Shown one piece after another: positions 2,469 through 52,034 of a stretch of DNA of 64,000 nucleotides. The DNA lies in assembly GCA_039583875.1 (NCBI GenBank), contig CM077165.1, forward strand, positions 72,404,757 to 72,468,756, in the 5' to 3' direction. Every line of letters begins with the position of its first letter. Positions within the stretch are counted from its first letter, which is position 1. A program made the position numbers and the translations under genes. The notes under the pieces were generated by a model that did no database searches, was not told the origin of the DNA, and was given only the letters and a program-made list of their open reading frames with translations. The DNA comes from Platanthera guangdongensis (lineage: Eukaryota > Streptophyta > Magnoliopsida > Asparagales > Orchidaceae).

Positions 2469-3617
2469 CTATTGCTGCTCAGGCTCCTTGATCACAATGC
2501 CCTTTCTTGATTGTATCTTTGCTTGGACTGGGGCTTCAGCATCTTCAGCAGCAGCAGGCTTCTTTCCTTTAAGATACTTCTTTTTCAATTCTTCAGCTTT
2601 GATCTTTTGCCTTTCAAAGTAATGATAAGGCTTTGGAAAATACTTGCTAGGCTCCTGGGCAGTAGGCGGTAGCTTTCCCATATTAGCCTTTCTTCTATAT
2701 TGCACAATGACCTCTTGCTTGTTCTCATTCTTCCTCCACTACAGTTCAGAATACCACTTGTTTCTGTCCTGGATATTGTCCTTGGCAGCCTTCCATGTAG
2801 TCAAGATGATATTCCTGGAAGTGGGGCTCCATTGTTCAAAATTAGACTTTAGTTCAGCTTGCTCTCTGAATCTTTTCTTAGACAATTGAGTCTCTTGTTC
2901 TTTCAGCAAAACCTCTTGTTCTTTTAGTATTGTCTCTGGCACAGGCTGAACCACTTTCTCAATGATGACATTTTAATTTCCTTCAGGAGGACTATACATT
3001 GACTGTATCTCTTGATGTATCATATCAAAGTCTGGTGGAGGATAGATCACTTGAGCTACTTCAGCTTGCTCTCCTCCAAGATATACATGATTAATCCCAG
3101 ACTCTACAACATTGTCATCATCACATAATGGAGGATATCCAAGGGTGGCTCTGATGGAATTTGAAATCCACTTTGCATGATCAAAGCCTGCTTTGACTAA
3201 CACCCTCTCCCCCTTTATGACTTCTCTTTCAGTGTGATCCCTAAGATCATCTTTCTGAAATCTTATCTGGGCATTCAAATAGTTTACTCCATCCTTATAG
3301 AAAGGTTTCAACCTTTGGAGCTTGTTAGTTATAGCCTTCTGAGAGTCCTCAATAGCAGTTTTAACAGCAGTTAAGCTCTCTTGCAATTGTTTGTCAACTT
3401 CTGCCTTAGCTGTAGCACTTGCTGTAGTCTGCCAGTAGCTATATTCTTCATTTCTGTTACTCTTGCATTGTGTGAAGCAGTGAGATTATCATTCATTCTC
3501 AGCTGGTTCTCCAGGACATAGCCTTGCTTCACTGCAATATCATCTACTTGTGTTTTGATCTTTTCCTGATGAGTGGTGTAACAGTCCAAAATTCTGAAGC
3601 AGGGAATTTTTGGGTGA

Positions 3618-4206
3618 CACGGCCTGGGACACGGGCGTGTCCCAGGGCGTGTCAGCGGACACGGCCTGAGACATGGGCGTGTCGCAGGGCGTGTCGAGGT
3701 TGTGTCGATGATCGGCCTTGGTGTCGAAGATTTTTCGCTCGACGATGTGTCGAGAGGAGACACACGGCCCAGGACACGGGCGTGTCCAAGGCCGTGTCGT
3801 GTGCTTGACGACTGTTACCCGACGATCGTCGAGTGTCGAGACATGAGTGTCGAGACGTGGGTGTCGAGTGTCGAGAAGTTACACACGGCCTGTGACACGG
3901 GCGTGTCACAGGGCGTGTCAAGTTGGGTCGACGATCTCAGCCCGACGAAGCATTTCGACAGGGCGTGTCTTTGTGCCGTGTCTGGGCACACGGCCTGGGA
4001 CACGGGCGTGTCACAGGCCGTGTGAAGTCTCGGGATGATTTGGGATTTTTTTCGCCCAGGCACACGGCCACAGACACGGGCGTGTTGGTGACACGGCCCA
4101 TGACACGGGCGTGTCCCATGGGCTTGTCACTGGTTTGGATAAGTCGGTTGCCACTGCTTGAGGTACACGGCCTGGGACACGGCCGTGTCACAGGCCGTGT
4201 CAGGTC
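3618..4206. repeat. ACACGGGCGTGTC / CACGGCC inverted-repeat array in E
   Basis: Repeated units of the form cacggcctgggacacgggcg followed by tgtc; GACACGGGCGTGTC and CACGGCC...GGCCGTG are near-palindromes. Interspersed GTGTCGA motifs also occur. It lies near the start of the LTR (U3), as in F. Confidence 0.85.
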
Positions 4207-4346: not shown

Positions 4347-4530
4347 AAGAGAGAAAGAGAGAGAGAAAGGAGGAGGAAGAAGGGGAAGGGATGCTGCTGG
4401 TGGTGCTGCGGTTTACCGACGAGAAAGCCGAAGCCGGCGTTGCGGAGGAAACGCTCTTGCGAGCCTTTCAAGCAAGCTTTGAGGTCATGGCACCGAAGCG
4501 GTCGTCAAGTGTAACGACTTTTCTTCCTAG
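4347..4530 (+). promoter_or_regulatory. E LTR leader: GA-rich tract, small ORF (MAPKR...) and GTAACG donor-like site
   Basis: A GAGAAAGAGA-type tract (4350-4400) precedes an ATG at 4487 that opens a 25-codon ORF starting MAPKRSSSVT. After exactly 24 nt the sequence is GTAACG (4511-4516). F's LTR has the same arrangement: ATG, 24 nt, GTAACG. The surrounding sequence is otherwise much diverged, so the conserved start, length and donor suggest a functional first exon of gag rather than chance. Confidence 0.5.
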
Positions 4531-39792: not shown

Positions 39793-41683
39793 CTATTTCT
39801 GGTCAGGTTCCTTGATAACTATTCCCTTGCCAGCTTGAACTTGAGCTTTGACAGGGGCATCAACAGTTTCAGCATCAGCAGGCTTCTTGCCTTTTAGATC
39901 TTTCTTTTTGAGTTCTTCTGCCTTGATCTTCTGTCTCTCAAAATAGTGATATGGCTTTGGAAAGTACTTGCTAGGCTCCACTGCAGTAGGAGGTAGCTTT
40001 CCCATCTTTGCCTTCCTTCTATATTGAACTATTGCTTCCTGCCTGATCTCATGTTTTCTCCATTCTGCTTCAGAAAACCATTTGTTCCTGTCATGAGTAT
40101 TGTCTTTGGCAGCTTTCCAGGCAGTTAATATTATATTCCTAGAGGTAGGGCTCCACTGTTCAAAGTCTGGCCTTTGTTCTGCTTGTTCCCTAAACCTCTT
40201 CTTAGACAACCTTGTCTCTTCTTCTTTTTGTAGAGCTTCTTCTTCTTTCTGAAGAGCTGCTTGCATAGCTTCAGTCATAGGCTGAACCACTTTATCCAGA
40301 ATAACATTAGACTTCCCTTCAGTTGGGCTATACATCTGATGAACATCAGCTTGCACCATGTCAAAATCTGGTGGAGGATAGATCACTTGAGCTACCTCTG
40401 GTTGCTCACCTCCAAGATATGCAGTTTGAATTCCAGATTCTGCAACATTGTCATCATCACAGAGGGGAGGATAGCGCAATGTAGCTCTGATGGAATTTGA
40501 TATCCACTTAGCATGGTCAGAGCTTGTCTTGACTAACACTCTCTCCCCCTTTATGACTTCTATAGCCATATGGTCTCTGACATCATCCTTTTGAAATCTG
40601 ATTTGACTATCCAAGTATCTGATTCCATCTTTAAAGTATGGTTTAATCTTTTGAAGTTGTTCTGATATGGCTTTCTGTGAGGCTTGGATTGCAGTCTTTA
40701 CAGCAGTAATTTCTTCTTGAAAGACTTTATCAAATTCAGCTTTAGCAGCAGTAGAAGTAGAAGTAGAAGGTTCAGCAGCCTTGTTCTTTAACTCAGTGAC
40801 AATAGTCATTATGTGAGCAGTCAAGTTGTCATTCATCCTTAACTGATTTTCAATAACATATCCTTGTTTCAATGCTATGTCATCCACTTGTTCTTTGATC
40901 TTCTCTTGGTGTGTTGCCAAATACACCACTGCATTTCCAACTTTGTGGAAGCATTCATTCATCTCTTTCTTGTTAAGGTTCATTTCAAACCTTATAGACT
41001 TTATATCTTGGGCAAGATCAAACTGCAAAGTTTTGTGCCCTTCATCTACATAAGCCTCTATAGCTTTTCTCTGTTCATCCAGTGTTATCTGCATTGCAAT
41101 CATTAATGCACTATAATCAATAGTTGGAGCTTGTTGAATTATAGGCTGTGGGGCTATAGATTGCAGAGCTTTCTTATAACTCTGGCTTCTCCTTTTAAAG
41201 ACATACAATTTCTTCTTATTTGCCCTAGCACTCTCCTCATCTTCAGAGGCAGAAGTGCTGGCTATGTCAACCCTATCCTTAGGGCTTTGAGGTCTGTCAG
41301 CTTGCACATCAGGTGCCTTCTTAGTTTCTGGCCTTAAAGGCTCTTCCAGAACTTGTACTTGCTCCCCCTCAACAGCAGCATGATCTTTTTCAGCAGCATC
41401 CTTGTCCATGTCAAAATCTGCTTGATCTAGATTGAGAAATAAATCTTCCATGGTGTAGTCAGGGGGTGAAGAAGCTGGAGACATTCTTTGCTCTTCAACT
41501 ACTGGATCAGGAATCTCTTCTTGTACAGCAGATGTGTCTTCTATAACAACATCTGGAGCTTGACTATGCAGCTGAGTGTGCTGAGGAACATCAGACAAAT
41601 CAGCATCTTCTTTAAGATATTCTAAAGTATTTAGGTCAGTGAGTACCTCTTGTATGATGGTGGTGGCTTGCTCACTATCCAGT
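39793..41683 (-). CDS. D extra ORF, C-terminal two thirds (cut by F)
   Basis: This continues in frame from 51101 once F and one TSD copy are removed; the combined ORF was about 939 codons with no break. This part begins in an acidic region (DSEQATTIIQEV) and contains SASEDEESARANKKKLYVFKRRSQ, an acidic patch followed by a possible nuclear localisation signal. A long helical, coiled-coil-prone stretch follows (QGYVIENQLRMNDNLTAH, KTAIQASQKAISEQLQKIK), then YPPPDFDMV, a Lys/Glu-rich helix (ALQKEEEALQKEEETRLSKK) and a basic tail. No transmembrane segment or protease, nuclease or helicase motif is visible. The product is unknown; RNA or chromatin binding is possible from composition only. Confidence 0.8.
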
Positions 41684-43967
41684 TGTAACACCCCCTATCC
41701 GTCGCATAGTATATAGCAGTAGGTCCGGCCGGGGCCCGACGCCATATACCACAGACAGACCGGGTGGTTACGTATGGAAACCATCCAACCAATCTCAACG
41801 TCCTACACAGAGCATTCTAGCGGAAGCAGTTTATAAAAGTTGTAAACAAGAACCCAGCATAGGAGCACGAATGTCCACTAATACCAAAAGGAATGTTATT
41901 ACAAAAATACCCAAAATCGGCCTTAAGGCCTTACAAAGTGTTTCACTTGTAAATTACATGATTTACAAACCACGGCACGCAGGCCGGTCATACATGAACA
42001 AAACAGAAACATTTCCACTTGGGCCTTCGAGGGCCAGCTTCGCAAAAAGGGCTTTAGCCCGCTATTGACCGCTTGGTCCAGCTGCACCTGCAAGCAACAA
42101 ACCACCGCACGGTGGCAAAACAAGGCAACGGTCAGCAATGCTGACCAAATTATAACGATCCCGCCCCCAACTCGGGGCGGCGATGCTCCTTCCCTGCATT
42201 TCATTAGCATAAGCGAGCCATATAAATAACCATAGCCATTTCATCACAGACGTTGGCTCGTACGGCCTCATGTCCCGTGCACTCAGGGCACATTCTCGGT
42301 GAACCAGTCGATGTCACGTCAATTAAAGCCATTGACATTCCGGACTCACCACCGCCACTTAGACGGCCTCTTCCTGGCCTGGGTCACGACAGTTTAAGCC
42401 ATTGACTGCCGAAGACCCTCATCTATGCCAACGGCTAGTGCCACGTAACCTTAGGTCTCTCTAACCCGAACGACATAGAGCGGGTACGGTTCCATCTAAC
42501 CCGTGCTCACATCGCAACGACAATTTAAGCCATTTGCGCGGGTCAAACTTCCGCCGAGTCCCATTCTACCGCAAGTCACATAACCCCGTTATGTTCAAGT
42601 TGGCACTCATGCCACCAAGTTGGCAAGATCTCGTATCCGCCCAGTTTTCCGGGTGCACCTTTGGGTTAGTCCCCAAGGCTCCCTGCTGCAATCTACCGCG
42701 TATAAAACCCGAAAAACAAACCATAGCACGGAGTCTTCTCCAGCCTTATGCAATGCAACATCACCGATCCAGACTAACATGTCCGTGTAGGCTTCACACA
42801 TCATGCCTATGTCCGTTCTCGCACACGGACGCTACACCACGGGGACTTTACATATCTACCAGAAGGAACGCCTCCAACTTTCCGCAAACTCGCGAGAGCG
42901 GGCTTCCTATGCTAAGAAAGAGAGCTATTCATGCTCAAGATGAGGATCGTTACCCTTGCGTTCCTCTTTGGCGCCATCGGAAAGTAATCGGATGGAAATG
43001 ACCGCACTAGCATTGCCTCCACGGATCCGGAGTCGGCTTGCGATTCGGAGCTCCGAAGCTCCTCCAATGGCGGATCTAGCTCTTCTTCTTCTTGCCTTAG
43101 CTCTCCTCTCTTCAAGGATTTAGAAAGAGAACAAGTGAAGAAAAGTGAGGTTTTCCAAGTCAACTCACGGGTATATCCCTTCAGGAACATCCCCCAGCCG
43201 TCGGATCTCAACCTAAGGAAACGAACGGCTTTGATTCGGGGCTGAAATGCCCAATCTGGACCGAACACGGCCTGGCACACGCCCGTGTCCAGGGCCATGT
43301 GCCGCATTCGCCGTCAAAATCGAATCTCCTGGAACCTCACACGGGTATCGAACACGCCCGTGTTCGAGCTGACACGCCCGTGTTCCACGTGACACGGCCG
43401 TGTAGCCGGCTGTGTACCCCATGATTTCCCCCCATTTTCAACCCGAGCACTGCACGGGTTCTAGGACACGCCCGTGTCCTTGCCCGTGTCACATTGACAC
43501 GCCTGGACCCCAGGCCGTGTACACGGGACATTACGTCGAGGGAAGAACGATGACTTGATGACACGGCCTTGGACACGCCCGTGTCCTAGGCCGTGTTCCT
43601 GTCTCGACGATCGTCGAGTGAATCTCGACGACTCCCCGGGACTATCGTCGACACGGGTCGACACGCCCTGCGACACGCCCGTGTCGCAGGGCGTGTGCCC
43701 ATTCTCGACGAATCGTCGAGTATAACTCGACGACTTCACGGCTAAGTGTCGACACGGGTCGACACGCCCTGCGACACGCCCGTGTCGCAGGCCGTGTGCC
43801 CATTCTCGACGAATCGTCGAGTATAACTCGACGACTTCGCGGCTAAGTGTCGACACACGCTTGACACGCCCTGGGACACGCCCGTGTCCCAGGCCGTGTG
43901 CCTTCTGCCAGAACCCAAACTGGCCCAAAACGTCCCCCTTTGCTCCTTCGAGTTTCAGGGCGTTACA
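41684..43967 (-). repeat. F 3' LTR
   Basis: A 2284-bp LTR. In element sense: TGTAACGCCC start, an ACACGGGCGTGT/CACGGCC inverted array (43902 to 43264) with a roughly 110-bp tandem unit containing CGACGAATCGTCGAG, a CT-rich leader, the MAPKR start codon (42977), then about 1.3 kb to GGGGGTGTTACA. I see no convincing TATA box before the leader. Confidence 0.92.
43264..43902. repeat. ACACGCCCGTGT inverted-repeat array in F LTR
   Basis: GACACGCCCGTGTC, CACGGCC/GGCCGTG and CTCGACGA...TCGTCGAG palindromes recur throughout. They are partly arranged as tandem units of about 110 bp (near 43646-43740 and 43757-43856). The copy in the 5' LTR is at 50397-51037. Alternating near-palindromes give plus and minus frames rich in GLGHGRV; these are not genes. 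Confidence 0.87.
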
Positions 43968-46900
43968 ACTCTCCCCCTCTTAAAAGAATTTCGCCCACGA
44001 AATTAAATAAAGGAAAGACATGTACAAAACCAAAATTTGTACCTGAGCGGAACAACTCCGGATATTCGTCAAGCATAGTCTGCTCTCTCTCCCAGGAGAG
44101 CTCCTCACGACCGCAATTGTCCCACCGGACCTTGACCATCCTGATCTCTTTATTGCGTAGCCGCTTGACCTCCGAGTCCTCAATCCGCACGGGCTTGACC
44201 TTTGTCGTTAGCCCACTTTCCACCGGCACTTGATCAACCGCGATCACTTGCGTAGGCTCTTGCACCGCCTTCCGAAGCACCGAAATGTGGAATACATCAT
44301 GTAAACCACTTAGCTCCACTGAAAGCTTCAACCTATAGGCTGCTTCGCCAACTCGCTCCAGAACCTCAAACGGTCCAAGGTACCTCGGGCTTAGCTTTTT
44401 CAATCGCCGCACCCGCGAGACACCCTTGAACGGCTTGATCTTTAAGTATACATAATCGCCCACAGCGAACTCCACGTTCCTGTGTTTGGCATTATAGTAC
44501 TTTGCTTGCCGGTCCTGAGCAATAAGCAACCTCTCCCGAATGGTTCTCACCAAAGAAGTAGCACCCTCTACTTTCGATCGCTTATACAACTTTGACTCAC
44601 CCGTTTCTAACCAAGACAACGGCGTGCGACATTTTCTACCATATAGGGCCTCGAAGGGCGCCATCTGAATACTCGCTTGGTAGCTGTTGTTGTATGCGAA
44701 CTCCACCAAATAAAGGTGGTCTTCCCATTGCTTTCCAAAATCCAAGACACACATGCGAAGCATGTCTTCCATGGTTCTATTGACCCTCTCGGTCTGCCCA
44801 TCCGTTTGCGGATGGAAGGCTGTGCTAAACTTCAGCTTTGTTCCCAACATTTGCTGCACCAGCCTCCAATCATTGGACGTGAACCGCCCATCTCGGTCAC
44901 TCACGATGCTGCGGGGCACACCATGAAGCCGTACTATATTATCCACATAAAGCTTTGCCAGCTTCTCCACCGGATCGTCCTTCCTATGGGGAATAAAATG
45001 CGACACCTTCGTTAATCGATCAACAACCACCCAAATGGCGTCGTTCCCCTTTTGTGACCTTGGCAAACCGTGCACAAAGTCCATAGAGATGTCGTCAAAT
45101 TTCCACTCTGGAATAGGCAAGGACTTAAGAAATCCTCCCGGCTTTTGGCACTCCGCCTTTATCAAGGCGCAGGTTTGGCACTTCGCTACGTATAGCGCCA
45201 CATCTTTTTTCAAACCCGGCCACCAAAACAGTTTCTTCACATCGCGGTACATCTTCGTGCTCCCCGGGTGAATCGAGTACTTGGTATGGTGCGCCTCGTA
45301 CAACAACTCCACCCGTAAATTGCCCACACTTGGGACGCACAGACGACCGTCTTTCCAAAGTAATCCGTCCTCCACGACGAATTGGGAATTTAACCCATCC
45401 AGGGCCTCTATCATGAACTGCTTCATATGAGCATCCATATCCAAAGCCTGCCGAATCCGATCAGCCAGGCCATATTGGACTTCAGTCCAATTCAGCACTG
45501 CTTCAGCACTTGATTGTCTGTCCACACAAACAATCTCCAACGCCTCCAACTCCTGCACCAACCGCTCATCATGCACCGATAGCCAATTGGCTTGAGCTGG
45601 GGCTCGGCGACTCAACGCGTCCGCAACCGCATTCCCTTTGCCAGGCACGTAGTGGATCTTGAATGTATAGTCCCCCAGGAACTCCATCCATCTACGTTGC
45701 CGCATATTCAGATCCTTCTGATCTATTAGATACTTTAGGCTCTTATGATCGGTGTAGATATCAATCTTCACACCGTACAAATAGTGTCTCCACAGCTTCA
45801 AGGCAAAAATCACGGCCGCCAACTCCAAGTCATGGACCGGATAATTCCTCTCGTGCACTTTTAGCTGTCTTGAGCCATAAGCTATCACGCTTCCGTGCTG
45901 CAGTAGCACGCAACCTAAACCGCTGCCTGAAGCATCGCTATATATCTCATAGCCTTCGGTTCCATATGGCGAACTCAGCACAGGCGCCGTGGTCAACCGA
46001 CACTTCAATTCCTCAAAAGCTCGCGCGCACTCCGGCGTCCAAACGAACTTATGCTCCTTCCTCGTCAAAGTAGTGAGAGGTAGCGCTATTCGCGAGAAGT
46101 TCTCTACGAAGCGCCTATAATAACCGGCAAGCCCCAAAAAGCTCCGGACTTCTGCTACCATAGCAAGCTCAGGCCACTCCCGTATCGCAACAATCTTCGC
46201 CGGATCCACAGCAATACCCTCTCCACTCACTATATGCCCGAGGAACGCCACTGAGGATAGCCAAAACTCGCATTTCGAGAACTTGGCATACAACTGATTT
46301 CTCCTTAGCGTCTCCAACACCAAATGAAGATGCTTGAAGTGATCTTCCTCACTTTGCGAGTACACCAAAATATCGTCGATGAAGACGATCACGAAATGGT
46401 CCAAGTACTCCCTGAACGTCCTGTTCATCAAATCCATGAATACTGACGGTGCATTAGTCAGCCCAAACGGCATGACCGTAAACTCATAATGCCCGTATCT
46501 CGTACTAAACGCTGTCTTCGGGATATCACTCTCCCTTATCCGCAGCTGATAGTACCCAGCCTTGAGATCCAACTTCGAGTACACCGTCGACCCGACTAAC
46601 TGATCAAAGAGATCATCAATCCCGGGGATCGGGTACTTGTTCTTCTCCGTCAGCTTGTTTAGCTCCCGATAATCTATACATAACCTCAAGCTTCCGTCCT
46701 TCTTCTTAACAAAGAGGACCGGTGCGCTCCAAGGCGAAGAACTCGGGCGCACATACCCTTGCTCCAACAACTCTTGCAGTTGAACTTTCAGCTCCGCCAT
46801 TTCCTTAGGCGCTAGCCGATACGGAGATCGTGACACAGGCTTTGCACCTGGCACTAGCTCGATCGTAAAATCTATCTCCCGCTGAGGCGGGGCTCCAGGA

Positions 46901-48555
46901 AGATCTGCGGGGAACACATCAGGGTATTCCGATACCACTGAAATACAATCCAACGCGGGCTTCGGCTTTGCAACCTCCACTAGTGTAAAGAATAGTTCTG
47001 CACCAGCACGAACCGCCTTCACCACCTGAAGAGCAGACATCAATGTCTTGCTCGGCCCCTTTAAGCCCGTAAAAGTCGTCTCACGACTCGCTCCCAGCTT
47101 GACTTCCTTGCTACCGCAATCTATATGGGCCTGCTGCTCCGAGAGCCAGTCCATGCCAAATATGACGTCGAACTCCACTAACGGAAGTAAAGACGCTCGC
47201 AGGTCGAACTCCTTCTCCCCAATACGAATCTTAACATCGCAGATCCTATCCGCTCGCATCGAACACCCATTGGGCAACAACACATCCAACTTATCCTTCG
47301 CCATCGAGGAAGGGACCCCGATGCGTAATATAAAGCCTTCGGACAAGAAGGAGTGTGAGGCTCCCGTATCGAAGAGTGTTCGTGCCGGATTTTCACAAAT
47401 CAATACAAATCCTGTCACCACATCAGCTTGTTTAATGGCCTCCTGTTGGCCAAGATTGTAGACCCTTGGTTGGGTCGGAGCATAATGGGATGCGGTCGAC
47501 TCCGCCGCCTTTCCCTTCTCTTCATAAGTAGCTCCCGTCTTCCTCTCGGACTTAGGACGTCCGCTCCAACAATCACGGGCGAAATGCCCCGTCTTTCCAC
47601 ATGTAAAGCACGCGCTCGGGGTCCGACTCGTAGTCGCCCCAGAAGCACCAGAAGGAGCTGGACTCGAAGTCCTATGCTTCTTGAAAGCCCTCCGATAGCC
47701 GGACTTTGAAGTAGTCGGCACTCTGAACTCAGATTTCTTTTCACCCAAGCTTTTCTTCGCTTGCACGCTCTTCATGTCCTTCTCCAAGGACCGAGCAGTA
47801 TTGACCAAGGTTAAGAAACCCTGCGTCATCGGCCCTGAGAGTAGCAACCTCAACTCGTCTCTCAAACCTTCGTAGAATCGATTAGTCTTGCGCTCCTCAT
47901 CCATGATGGTGGAGCTAGCATATCGACTTAGCCGAGTAAACTCGTGGAGATATTCATCCACGCTTCTCTCGCCCTGAACCAACTTCAGGAACTCATTCTC
48001 CATCGAAATCCTCTGAGTAGAAGGGAGGTATCTTGCTAAGAACAATCCCGAGAACTCTTCCATCGGAACGTCTATCAATTGTCTACCTCTCAAATGATGC
48101 AGCTCCAATCCTTCCCACCACATCCTCGCTTCACCGTCCAGCAGGAACATAGCGATGGTGGTCATTTTCCACTCCTCCGTCTCCGTCGCCGTCATGACTC
48201 TCTTCACCCTAGAGAGCTAGTCTTCAGCCTGAGATGGGGTTCCCAACCCCGAGAATAACGGAGGGTTAAAGCTCATTACATGCTTTAGCTGCCTCTCAGT
48301 TGCCCTCCTTGGCACTACCGGTTCTACAACCACTTGCTCCACCCTCCTCGGCTCAGCCTCTTGCAGAGGTTCTTGCTCCATCACGGGAGCGGGCTGCTGC
48401 GCTTGCCTTCCAGGCTGCGCATTAATCACGGCCAACACCGCTTCAGCCACCAAACGTATATTTTCAGCCGACAGAGGTGTTGCAGGAGCAATATCCGGTG
48501 CACTACTATCCTCAGAAACTCGGCGTTCTGACGGCCCAACACCACTTCTGGTCAC
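43963..48555 (-). pseudogene. gag-pol: F gag-pol polyprotein with chromodomain (one nonsense codon)
   Basis: One frame of about 1530 codons, interrupted only by a TAG near 48214 (Trp to stop). From the restart at 48207: Gag capsid ([32 protein letters not shown]), CCHC knuckle [14 protein letters not shown] (about 200), protease [12 protein letters not shown] (about 285), RT ([20 protein letters not shown]), RNase H ([24 protein letters not shown]), integrase ([15 protein letters not shown]...[29 protein letters not shown]), then [12 protein letters not shown] and a chromodomain-like [18 protein letters not shown]. Chromodomains direct integration to heterochromatin. The frame at 48555 begins with GTG right after a TAG and has no ATG for about 60 codons, so the true start is probably a spliced exon in the LTR. 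Confidence 0.88.
43968..43990 (-). other. F polypurine tract, inside the reading frame
   Basis: AAGAGGGGGAGAGT in element sense, immediately before the LTR. The gag-pol frame runs through it, and its TAA (43963-43965) is formed by the first bases of the LTR (TG|TAA). Confidence 0.85.
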
Positions 48556-48767
48556 CTATAGTGGTACAAAACACCGTTAAGCGACCAAATTGTATTGCAA
48601 ACAACAATTATAGGAACACGCAGGTTCCTCAAACACGAGTATTTTCATTCCTAAGTGGACATTCATGGGTTCGTTTACCATTATAACGATGACGCACGTA
48701 ATGTGCTCACCACCCCTTAAAAAGAATTCGCCCACGAATTCAGTTTAATCCCGACCAAAACCAGTAG
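48556..48767 (-). other. F 5' leader with acceptor-like site before gag
   Basis: Short non-coding sequence between PBS and gag. In sense, its end reads TTTTGTACCACTATAG, giving an AG at 48556-48557 exactly where the ATG-less gag frame begins. The pyrimidine tract is modest. It is the proposed 3' splice site. Confidence 0.5.
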
Positions 48768-48796
48768 CCCAGGATCGAAACCTGGCTCTGATACCA
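48768..48796 (-). other. F primer-binding site (initiator Met tRNA, 29-nt match)
   Basis: The plus strand matches the last 29 nt of plant initiator tRNA-Met as I know it, CCA included, covering the acceptor strand and T arm. Usual primer sites match about 12-18 nt. The LTR begins three bases to the right. Confidence 0.85.
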
Positions 48797-48799
48797 AAT

Positions 48800-51100
48800 T
48801 GTAACCCCCCCTATCCGTCGCATAGTATATAGCAGTAGGTCCGGCCGGGGCCCGACGCCATATACCACAGACAGACCGGGTGGTTACGTATGGAAACCAT
48901 CCAACCAATCTCAACGTCCTACACAGAGCATTCTAGCGGAAGCAGTTTATAAAAGTTGTAAACAAGAACCCAGCATAGGAGCACGAATGTCCACTAATAC
49001 CAAAAGGAATGTTATTACAAAAATACCCAAAATCGGCCTTAAGGCCTTACAAAGTGTTTCACTTGTAAATTACATGATTTACAAACCACGGCACGCAGGC
49101 CGGTCATACATGAACAAAACAGAAACATTTCCACTTGGGCCTTCGAGGGCCAGCTTCGCAAAAAGGGCTTTAGCCCGCTATTGACCGCTTGATCCAGCTG
49201 CACCTGCAAGTAACAAACCACCGCACGGTGGCAAAACAAGGCAACGGTCAGCAATGCTGACCAAATTATAACGATCCCGCCCCCAACTCGGGGCGGCGAT
49301 GCTCCTTCCCTACATTTCATTAGCATAAGCGAGCCATATAAATAACCATAGCCATTTCATTACAGACGTTGGCTCGTACGGCCTCACATCCCGTGCACTC
49401 AGGGCACATTCTCGGTGAACCGGTCGATGTCACGTCAATTAAAGCCATTGACATTCCGGACTCACCACCGCCACTTAGACGGCCAAACCTATGAGCAATT
49501 TGTCTTCCTGGCCTGGGTCACAACAGTTTAAGCCATTGACCGCCGAAGACCCTCATCTATGCCAATGGCGAGTGCCACGTAACCTTAGGTCTCTCTAACC
49601 CGAACGACATAGAGCGGGTACGGTTCCATCTAACCCGTGCTCACATCGCAACGACAATTTAAGCCATTTGCGCGGGTCAAACTTCCGCCGAGTCCCATTC
49701 TACCGCAAGTCACATAACCCCGTTATGTTCAAGTTGGCACTCAGGCCACCAAGTTGGCAAGATCTCGTATCCGCCCAGTTTTCCGGGTGCACCTTTGGGT
49801 TAGTCCCCAAGGCTCCCTGCTGCAATCTACCGCGTAGAAAACCCGAAAAACAAACCATAGCACGGAGTCTTCTCCGGCCTTATGCAATGCAACATCACCG
49901 ATCCAGACTAACATGTCCGGGTAGGCTTCACACATCATGCCTATGTCCGTTCTCGCATACGGATGCTACACCACGGGGACTTTACATATCTACCCGAAGG
50001 AACGCCTCCAACTCTCCGCAAACTCGCGAGAGCGGGCTTCCTATGCTAAGAAAGAGAGCTATTCATGCTCAAGATGAGGATCGTTACCCTTGCGTTCCTC
50101 TTTGGCGCCATCGGAAAGTAATCGGATGGAAATGACCGCACTAGCGTTGCCTCCGCGGATCCGGAGTCGGCTTGCGATTCGGAGCTCCGAAGCTCCTCCA
50201 ATGGCGGATCTAGATCTTCTTCTTCTTGCCTTAGCTCTCCTCTCTCCAAGGATTTAGAGAGAGAACAAGTGAAGAAAAGTGAGGTTTTCCAAGTCAACTC
50301 ACGGGTATATCCCTTCAGGAACATCCCCAGCCGTCGGATCTCAACCTAAGGAAACGAACGACTTTGATTCGGGGCTGAAATGCCCAATCTGGACCGAACA
50401 CGGCCTGGCACACGCCCGTGTCCAGGGCCGTGTGCCGCATTCGCCGTCAAAATCGAATCTCCTGGAACCTCACACGGTTATCGAACACGCCCGTGTTCGA
50501 GCTGACACGCCCGTGTTCCACGTGACACGGCCGTGTAGCCGGCCGTGTACCCCATGATTTTCCCCCATTTTCAACCCGAGCACTGCACGGGTTCTAGGAC
50601 ACGCCCGTGTCCTTGCCCGTGTCACATTGACACGCCTGGACCCCAGGCCATGTACACGGGACATTTCGTCGAGGGAAGAACGGCGACTTGATGACACGGC
50701 CTTGGACACGCCCGTGTCCTAGGCCGTGTTCCTGTCTCGACGATCGTCGAGTGAATCTCGACGACTCCACGGGAATATCGTCGACACGGGTCGACATGCC
50801 CTACGACACGCCCGTGTCGCAGGCCGTGTGCCCATTCTCGACGAATCGTCGAGTATAACTCGACGACTTCACGGCTAAGTGTCGACACGGGTCGACACGC
50901 CCTGCGACACGCCCGTGTCGCAGGCCGTGTACCCATTCTCGACGAATCGTCGAGTATAACTCGACGACTTCGCGGCTAAGTGTCGACACACGCTTGACAC
51001 GCCCTGGGACACGCCCGTGTCCCAGGCCGTGTGCCTTCTGCCAGAACCCAAACTGGCCCAAAACGTCCCCCTTTGCTCCTTCGAGTTTTGGGGCGTTACA
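48800..51100 (-). repeat. F 5' LTR
   Basis: A 2301-bp copy of 41684-43967. Array at 50397-51037, CT-rich leader at about 50150-50290, MAPKR start codon at 50111 and GTAACG at 50087-50082. A segment of about 20 bp near 49484-49503 is absent from the other LTR. Confidence 0.92.
50088..50111 (-). CDS. Putative F gag first exon in the 5' LTR (MAPKRNAR)
   Basis: ATG at 50111 (complement of 50109-50111) opens a frame reading MAPKRNAR over 24 nt, then AGG|GTAACG. Joining base 50088 to 48555 keeps the frame and gives Gag a basic MAPKR start, similar to the MPPRR-like starts common in chromovirus Gags. E shares the ATG, the 24-nt length and GTAACG. The implied intron (50087 to 48556, 1532 nt) removes the rest of the LTR, the PBS and the leader. 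Unspliced, the small frame ends after 21 codons. Inference from sequence only. Confidence 0.5.
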
Positions 51101-52034
51101 CCAGTGTAGAGGGTTCTTCTACAACTGGAGGCTCCCCCTGGATCTCAGCAATCTCTTGAGCAGCAGGAGATTTCACTGCAGGCTCTTCCTCATGCTCATC
51201 TGGAGTGAAGACAACATGTTCTTCACTCCCAGAACTGCTAGTGGACACTTGTTCCACAGGAGCTGTTTTCCTTTTCTTCTTTGGAGGAGTGTCTTTCTCA
51301 GTAATTGTCTTCTCTGGGGTTGGCATTTCCTTGGACAACACCCTGTCCCATCTTGAAAAGATCCTTTGATCCATCTTCCTCATGTGGTTTATCTTGCTGC
51401 CTGCAGCAGTATTCATTACCTCTGGTATGGTACCAGCTAGGTAGAGACTAATGATTCTGCCCAGATTGGGCTTCTTCAAGCTCTCCTTAATCTTCTCATA
51501 AACCACTATAGACCAGTCTGTTTTCAGAGTGAAGATTATCCTTGTCATGATTCCAAACATATAGGCAGACACTCTGTCATGCCCTCCTGGCTTGCTTAAG
51601 ATCACCTTGCCAACTATCTCAGACATGAACTTTCCTTGATTATTCATGCCTTTTCTGTTGAAAACTGAACCTAGCTTCATCTTTGGATCAAGTCCACACC
51701 AGGTAAGAGCTTCCCTGGTCTTGGATGTAGTAATTTCTTCTTCATCTTGAGTTTTTGGTAGCTGGAGTACCTTCCTCAGATTTTTAGGTGAAACCTTGAC
51801 CTTAGTTCCATGAACTCTGGATTTGATTCTGTATCCAAATTCATCTACGACAGCTCCATTAAGGAATTCAAGCACCTCCTTCTTCCATATCTTAGTTGGT
51901 TCTGAAACTAAGTACTCTAATCCAGAATCTGCGACTAGGGTTACGATCGCCTTGATTTCATGATCTGCATCGTCGAACGCGCCGCGCACAAGCTCATATC
52001 CTTCGTTAACGTTCTCCTCAAGCTTAGGTGCCAT
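51101..52034 (-). CDS. D extra ORF, N-terminal domain (cut by F)
   Basis: The ATG at 52034 follows AAACCCTA directly. The first 230 residues or so are the best-conserved part relative to A: MAPKLEENVNEGYELV, IWKKEVLEFLNG, TKVKVSPKNLRKVLQLPK, GSVFNRKGMN, GKVILSKPGGHDR, FTLKTDWSIVVYEKIKESL and PNLGRIISLYLAG. The block has the feel of the plant transposon-associated domain PF20167, an eye judgement needing a profile search. A Lys-rich patch (PPKKKRKTAP) resembles a nuclear localisation signal, and an acidic tail follows. It is split after codon 311 by F (TSD ccagt at 51101-51105). Residues encoded left of 51101 belong to F. Confidence 0.8.

Follow-up and report, generated by a model that had tools for sequence, protein, structure and literature searches.

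The DNA analysed here, a 64,000-nt window of the Platanthera guangdongensis genome, contains a Ty3/gypsy gag-pol element, F, on the minus strand (Table 1). The LTRs of F are ~2.3 kb long, and alignment of 48799-51100 with 41683-43967 by blastn gave 97.35% identity. A Pfam search of the frame at 43966-48213 detected gag, zinc knuckle, protease, reverse transcriptase (RT), RNase H, integrase and Tf2-type SH3 domains. The order of these domains between the LTRs, together with a primer-binding site (PBS) adjoining the 5' LTR, is that of a Ty3/gypsy element. The chromodomain PF00385 matched F weakly (E 0.0012; 19.2 bits, under the 25.1 cut-off) and was absent from the Pfam list of F at E 0.001, and the C-terminal 200 residues gave a best match to solved structures of only E 0.072. 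The PBS, TGGTATCAGAGCC, begins three bases past the end of the 5' LTR and presumably matches the initiator tRNA-Met. The LTR end could be matched in 10 rows, out of 16 sequences tried, and 9 of these carry the PBS core, TGGTATC, after it; L056 was without a primer site. The PBS region of F has ~19 bases more than that of F copies like L002 and L003 (TGGTATCAGAGCCAGGTTTCGATCCTGGG versus TGGTATCAGA). We take the extra bases to be tRNA-like, which would fit a reverse transcriptase that read on into the tRNA. At this region L009 carries a different and longer stretch. The LTR of F is similar to the Tekay LTRs of Beta (PMC3605345) in length only.

Table 1. Features of element F and of the LTR of E in the window.
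Feature	Position	Strand	Basis or location
Element F, Ty3/gypsy gag-pol	41684..51100	-	LTR pair (blastn), flank reading, Pfam domains
5-bp repeat CCAGT flanking F	41679-41683 and 51101-51105		read in flanks
F 5' LTR	48800..51100	-	blastn; end placed at TTACA ahead of PBS
F 3' LTR	41684..43967	-	blastn and flanks
Putative gag start exon, 24 nt, MAPKRNAR, ATGGCGCCAAAGAGGAACGCAAGG	50088..50111	-	within 5' LTR
Predicted splice donor GTAACG	50082..50087	-	directly 3' of the 24-nt exon
Predicted intron, 1532 nt, containing LTR end and PBS	48556..50087	-	
F primer-binding site TGGTATCAGAGCCAGGTTTCGATCCTGGG	48768..48796	-	
Branch-point-like CTTAAC, ~25 nt ahead of gag body	48576..48581	-	
Predicted acceptor TAG (...CACTATAG); stop in the unspliced gag frame	48556..48558	-	
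F gag body GTGACCAGAAGTGG, from acceptor to premature stop at 48219-48217	48217..48555	-	
Remaining gag-pol open frame (gag, zinc knuckle, protease, RT, RNase H, integrase)	43963..48216	-	
Copy of start exon and donor in F 3' LTR	42948..42977	-	
Putative E start exon (24 nt, MAPKRSSS) and GTAACG	4487..4516	+	LTR E

The gag frame of F opens straight after a TAG and has no ATG, as the first-pass annotation had stated, and the AG that it proposed as the acceptor, ending at 48556, is present. Likewise, the 5' LTR carries the described ATG at 50111, which begins MAPKRNAR and is followed after 24 nt by GTAACG. This predicted start exon lies 1,556 nt upstream of the gag body, with the PBS in between, and both coordinates and phase agree with the proposal that joining 50088 to 48555 over the 1532-nt interval is in frame. 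At the exon boundary, AGG/GTAACG is near what we take to be the plant donor consensus. The GTG noted at 48555 is the first body codon of F but is not a conserved codon, as L033 and L039 have GCA there. Initiation at this GTG was rejected because other copies have GCA and because an in-frame TAG precedes it. The sequence of F matches the anatomy of the spliced start of rice tungro bacilliform virus (RTBV), in which splicing brings a leader AUG with a donor into frame with a distant ORF, and for F such splicing is predicted.

Elsewhere in the window, E is an LTR with no gag adjoining. It retains, on the plus strand, the ATG (4487), the 24-nt length and GTAACG (4511-4516), as had been claimed for this distant relative. 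In the E family, L051/L065 is 90.5% identical to the LTR of E and has the gag start (the 5' part was read); L051 has the exon MAPKRSSR and the body start TTTAG/VTRSG at 1779 nt. Other body starts are GCA GCT AGG (AARSG) in L033 and VARSG in L036.

The arrangement is abundant in the genome. A degenerate pattern of exon and donor (MAPKR codons, 6-16 free bases, GTAACG) had 38,316 matches in 4.25 Gb, compared with a single match for the reversed-pattern control, and the first 100 matches listed vary at wobble positions, with alternative Ala, Pro, Lys and Arg codons. A pattern of acceptor and gag start (TAG plus V/A-x-R-S-G codons) had 20,853 genome matches and 2 in the control. The ratio of exon to acceptor matches, 1.84, fits two LTRs per internal region. 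Among the matches listed, the acceptor alone picked out 41 places within the first 18.9 Mb of C1, which is as far as the exon listing extends. In 25 of these 41 places the same strand carried an exact exon match 1497-1795 nt upstream, compared with a mean of 0.31 and a maximum of 4 in 2000 trials of random placement. The 800-base upstream stretches of the 16 remaining places yielded a further 11 that have a 24-nt ATG exon followed by GT, with changes that give peptides such as MPPKRNAR, MAPRKNAR and MAPKKSQR. This brings the total to 36 of 41 places with a 24-nt ATG exon and GT located 1.5-1.8 kb upstream. The exons of the 11 scored 14-17 of 18, and 60 shuffles averaged 12.0 and reached at most 14. 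L078, whose score of 14 equals the top shuffle score, was counted for its sequence and place, which are like those of L084, and L075 (score 15) was excluded for a place and peptide that do not fit; taking a score above 14 as the sole criterion likewise gives 36 of 41, with L078 out and L075 in. No convincing exon was present in the stretch read at five of the acceptor places (L073, L075, L079, L083 and L085).

Viewed from the exon, gag starts were found downstream in 8 of 11 sequences, comprising F and 10 exon-selected copies from 30 exon-pattern loci (F, L031, L033, L036, L039, L046, L048 and L051); L037, L045 and L056 had none within the downstream stretch read. At L035/L036 (C1:789005-792759), two exon-bearing LTRs lie only 3.7 kb apart and the upstream LTR is followed by a gag start, suggesting a shortened element that has retained the start exon. 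Across several diverged families, chosen partly by exon and partly by acceptor, the exon, donor, phase, acceptor and ATG-less body start predicted from F all hold.

Splice-site motifs were compared in the 21 rows whose body start could be read, which are mostly close copies of F and include F itself (L001). None of them has an ATG opening the gag body, and the first body codon is GTG or GCA throughout; a conserved ATG there in relatives had been named as one observation that would count against the first-pass annotation. TAG stands directly 5' of the body in 18 of the 21 rows, L039 having TAT and L071 and L072 ending in AGG. A YTNAY motif, which we take to be the branch point, starts 24-28 nt ahead of the body in every row except L072 (20/21). 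Intron lengths range from 1473 to 1771 nt and fall into all three classes modulo 3, from which it follows that the two exons are not parts of one frame. At the sequence level, the earlier reading of the F gag start is supported.

Both sides of the predicted junction look coding in their patterns of change. The ATG is invariant in 36 exons (the search favoured ATG) and the final Arg codon is retained in 35 of the 36. Among 19 distinct exons, decayed copies included, 44.6% of the differences in codons 2-5 are synonymous, compared with 17.9% for random changes. Over the first 30 gag codons, dN/dS was 0.11-0.54 in six of seven family pairs, which have sequences in common, and dS was saturated in the seventh pair. 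Judged by these ratios, purifying selection acts on gag right from where the body begins. Among 30 closely related F copies, conservation of the exon does not stand out clearly from that of its flanks: the number of changes per site per copy was 0.0167 in both exon and donor, 0.0337 in the 160 nt upstream and 0.0217 in the 100 nt downstream. These copies differ too little to reveal constraint.

The unspliced RNA appears poorly suited to Gag synthesis. Between a guessed transcription start at 50275 and the gag body, the inferred leader of F contains 41 ATGs, and the 16 that are in the gag frame all reach a stop before gag. The exon ATG itself opens a frame of 21 codons in unspliced RNA. No ATG lies within 200 nt upstream of the F start exon, and 14 of 19 exon types are ATG-free for 165 nt upstream of the exon, with E and four others having an ATG there. 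The in-frame TAG, the number of leader ATGs and the closure of all 16 gag-frame ATGs support the view that unspliced RNA could hardly make Gag. One way around this would be for ribosomes on the unspliced RNA to initiate at a Met immediately ahead of the capsid motif (residue 94 of F, the M before FNPP), which they would reach through internal entry, reinitiation or shunting. All 10 copies read have this Met in frame, other body Mets varying in place, and it could begin a shorter Gag; plant pararetroviruses are known to combine leader uORFs with ribosome shunting (PMC5902531). However, purifying selection acts on the 69-92 codons ahead of this Met, beginning with the first ones, the ribosome would have to pass the 41 upstream ATGs, and both MAPKR and the constant 24-nt exon length would be left unexplained. 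We consider such a start improbable.

A basic N-terminus of the searched form was present in 9 of 122 annotated proteins (120 of 7,969 matches being listed), including MAPKRATR and MPPKRAS in Tanacetum and MPPRRE in Centaurea. These annotated Gag N-termini resemble the exon peptide; the first-pass annotation had remarked that chromovirus Gags usually start with a basic MPPRR-like peptide. In Platanthera zijinensis, the gag part of models P0004-P0006 begins with VTRS, the residues that directly follow the acceptor. The N-termini that precede gag differ among P0002 and P0004-P0006, and the 24-nt exon is in none of them; the differing N-termini may arise because gene finders miss a first exon as short as 8 codons. 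That of P0004 can be aligned to the F LTR ~0.5 kb ahead of the body, implying either a splice or a deletion. One annotation from P. guangdongensis, P0003, starts MTRSG and so has a Met at the body start. An LTR-borne start exon could account for the inconsistent Gag starts in protein models of these elements. A first exon of the MAGLRA type, taken from P0006, was rejected, as the required ATG is present in just two of the six LTRs with that stretch (F and L048).

These N-termini, and the alignment of that of P0004 to the LTR, are what would be expected if the donor were real and joined to another acceptor, or if a different LTR exon started Gag. The absence of the MAGLRA-type ATG from four of the six LTRs and the presence of a 24-nt exon in phase with the gag acceptor at 36 of 41 places argue against this explanation, and we give it little chance. 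It is highly improbable that the LTR exon serves as a conserved regulatory uORF and that the GT behind it is incidental: unspliced, it is indeed a short AUG-initiated frame in F, but E and F diverge past GTAACGA although the uORF continues, the peptide is like annotated plant Gag N-termini and the gag body start is without an ATG in 21 rows.

The reading that we prefer is that the F group, a large set of orchid Ty3/gypsy elements, makes Gag-Pol from two exons. Exon 1, in the LTR, would supply eight codons of a basic Gag N-terminus, and in F its AUG would be the first one on the inferred transcript. The host spliceosome would join the AGG/GTAACG donor to the gag body at TAG/G just past the PBS, removing a 1.5-1.8 kb intron with the LTR end and the PBS. 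The spliced RNA would be the sole efficient Gag-Pol mRNA and could not be primed for reverse transcription. The unspliced RNA would keep the PBS and serve as genome only, its AUGs giving short frames and the acceptor TAG shutting the gag frame. The exon, the donor and acceptor motifs, their phase, the ATG-less body, the coding constraint on both sides and the PBS in between are present in the DNA. We infer from this anatomy a splicing event, a transcription start and two separate RNA pools, and hold it very probable that splicing removes the PBS and divides the RNA into a spliced messenger and an unspliced genome. We lean, with less assurance, towards the view that genomic RNA is never the Gag-Pol messenger, so that an obligatory splice that deletes the PBS would commit each transcript to one role or the other. 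A degenerate junction pattern run across the genome found no spliced retrocopies, although diverged copies would escape an exact pattern; its 2 matches are both unspliced copies with changed acceptors. Under the two-exon model this absence is expected, since spliced RNA would be without a PBS, and it is not proof.

Related arrangements are known, and each differs from the one predicted for F. In avian leukosis virus, the first gag codons with their AUG are spliced to a downstream gene to form env mRNA, and Gag-Pol is made from unspliced RNA. The logic in F would be the reverse. A leader uORF of RTBV is spliced to the distant ORF IV (P4) and enables its translation; P4 is an additional protein, and the coat protein and RT come from pregenomic RNA, according to the part of PMC5902531 available. 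In F, unlike RTBV, gag-pol itself would need splicing, and the exon is in the LTR. For BARE1, a Ty1/copia element of barley, the available text of PMC3735527 describes RNA pools that arise from two TATA boxes and differ in capping and polyadenylation, with an intron that favours Gag over Pol. The predicted separation of pools in F would instead come from splicing out the PBS. Diaspora, a soybean Ty3/gypsy element, also has a long distance from LTR to gag, with donors predicted inside the LTR and acceptors predicted on either side of the start codon, but its putative gag start codon lies past the PBS and the predicted sites are without evidence of use (PMC1142308, in part). The same 2005 text states that introns upstream of gag were unreported in any LTR retroelement. 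Splicing of LTR retrotransposon RNA is also known in plants from Ogre, EVADE and sunflower RTE; Ogre and EVADE have introns located within coding regions or between them, and in the accessible parts of these reports no intron is described as holding a PBS or a gag start (PMC6317226, PMC12786077, PMC7730604). Our searches of open-access full texts turned up no report of an LTR-borne gag start exon, and its novelty is provisional because most subscription papers lie outside the literature searched.

A major question, according to PMC3735527, is how one retroelement transcript is split between translation and reverse transcription. If the two-exon model is right, a splice that removes the PBS would by its very nature settle this split, in elements present in tens of thousands of copies. 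As a by-product of an obligatory splice of this kind, LTRs, solo or 3' (38,316 matches of exon and donor), would be mobile units that combine a promoter, a start codon and a donor, able to start fusion proteins with host exons and potentially to provide new first exons. Upstream of the start exon, the LTRs of F (50693-51035) and E (3611-4027) also have in common a run of ~100-bp tandem units, which are rich in ACACGGGCGTGT-like palindromes.
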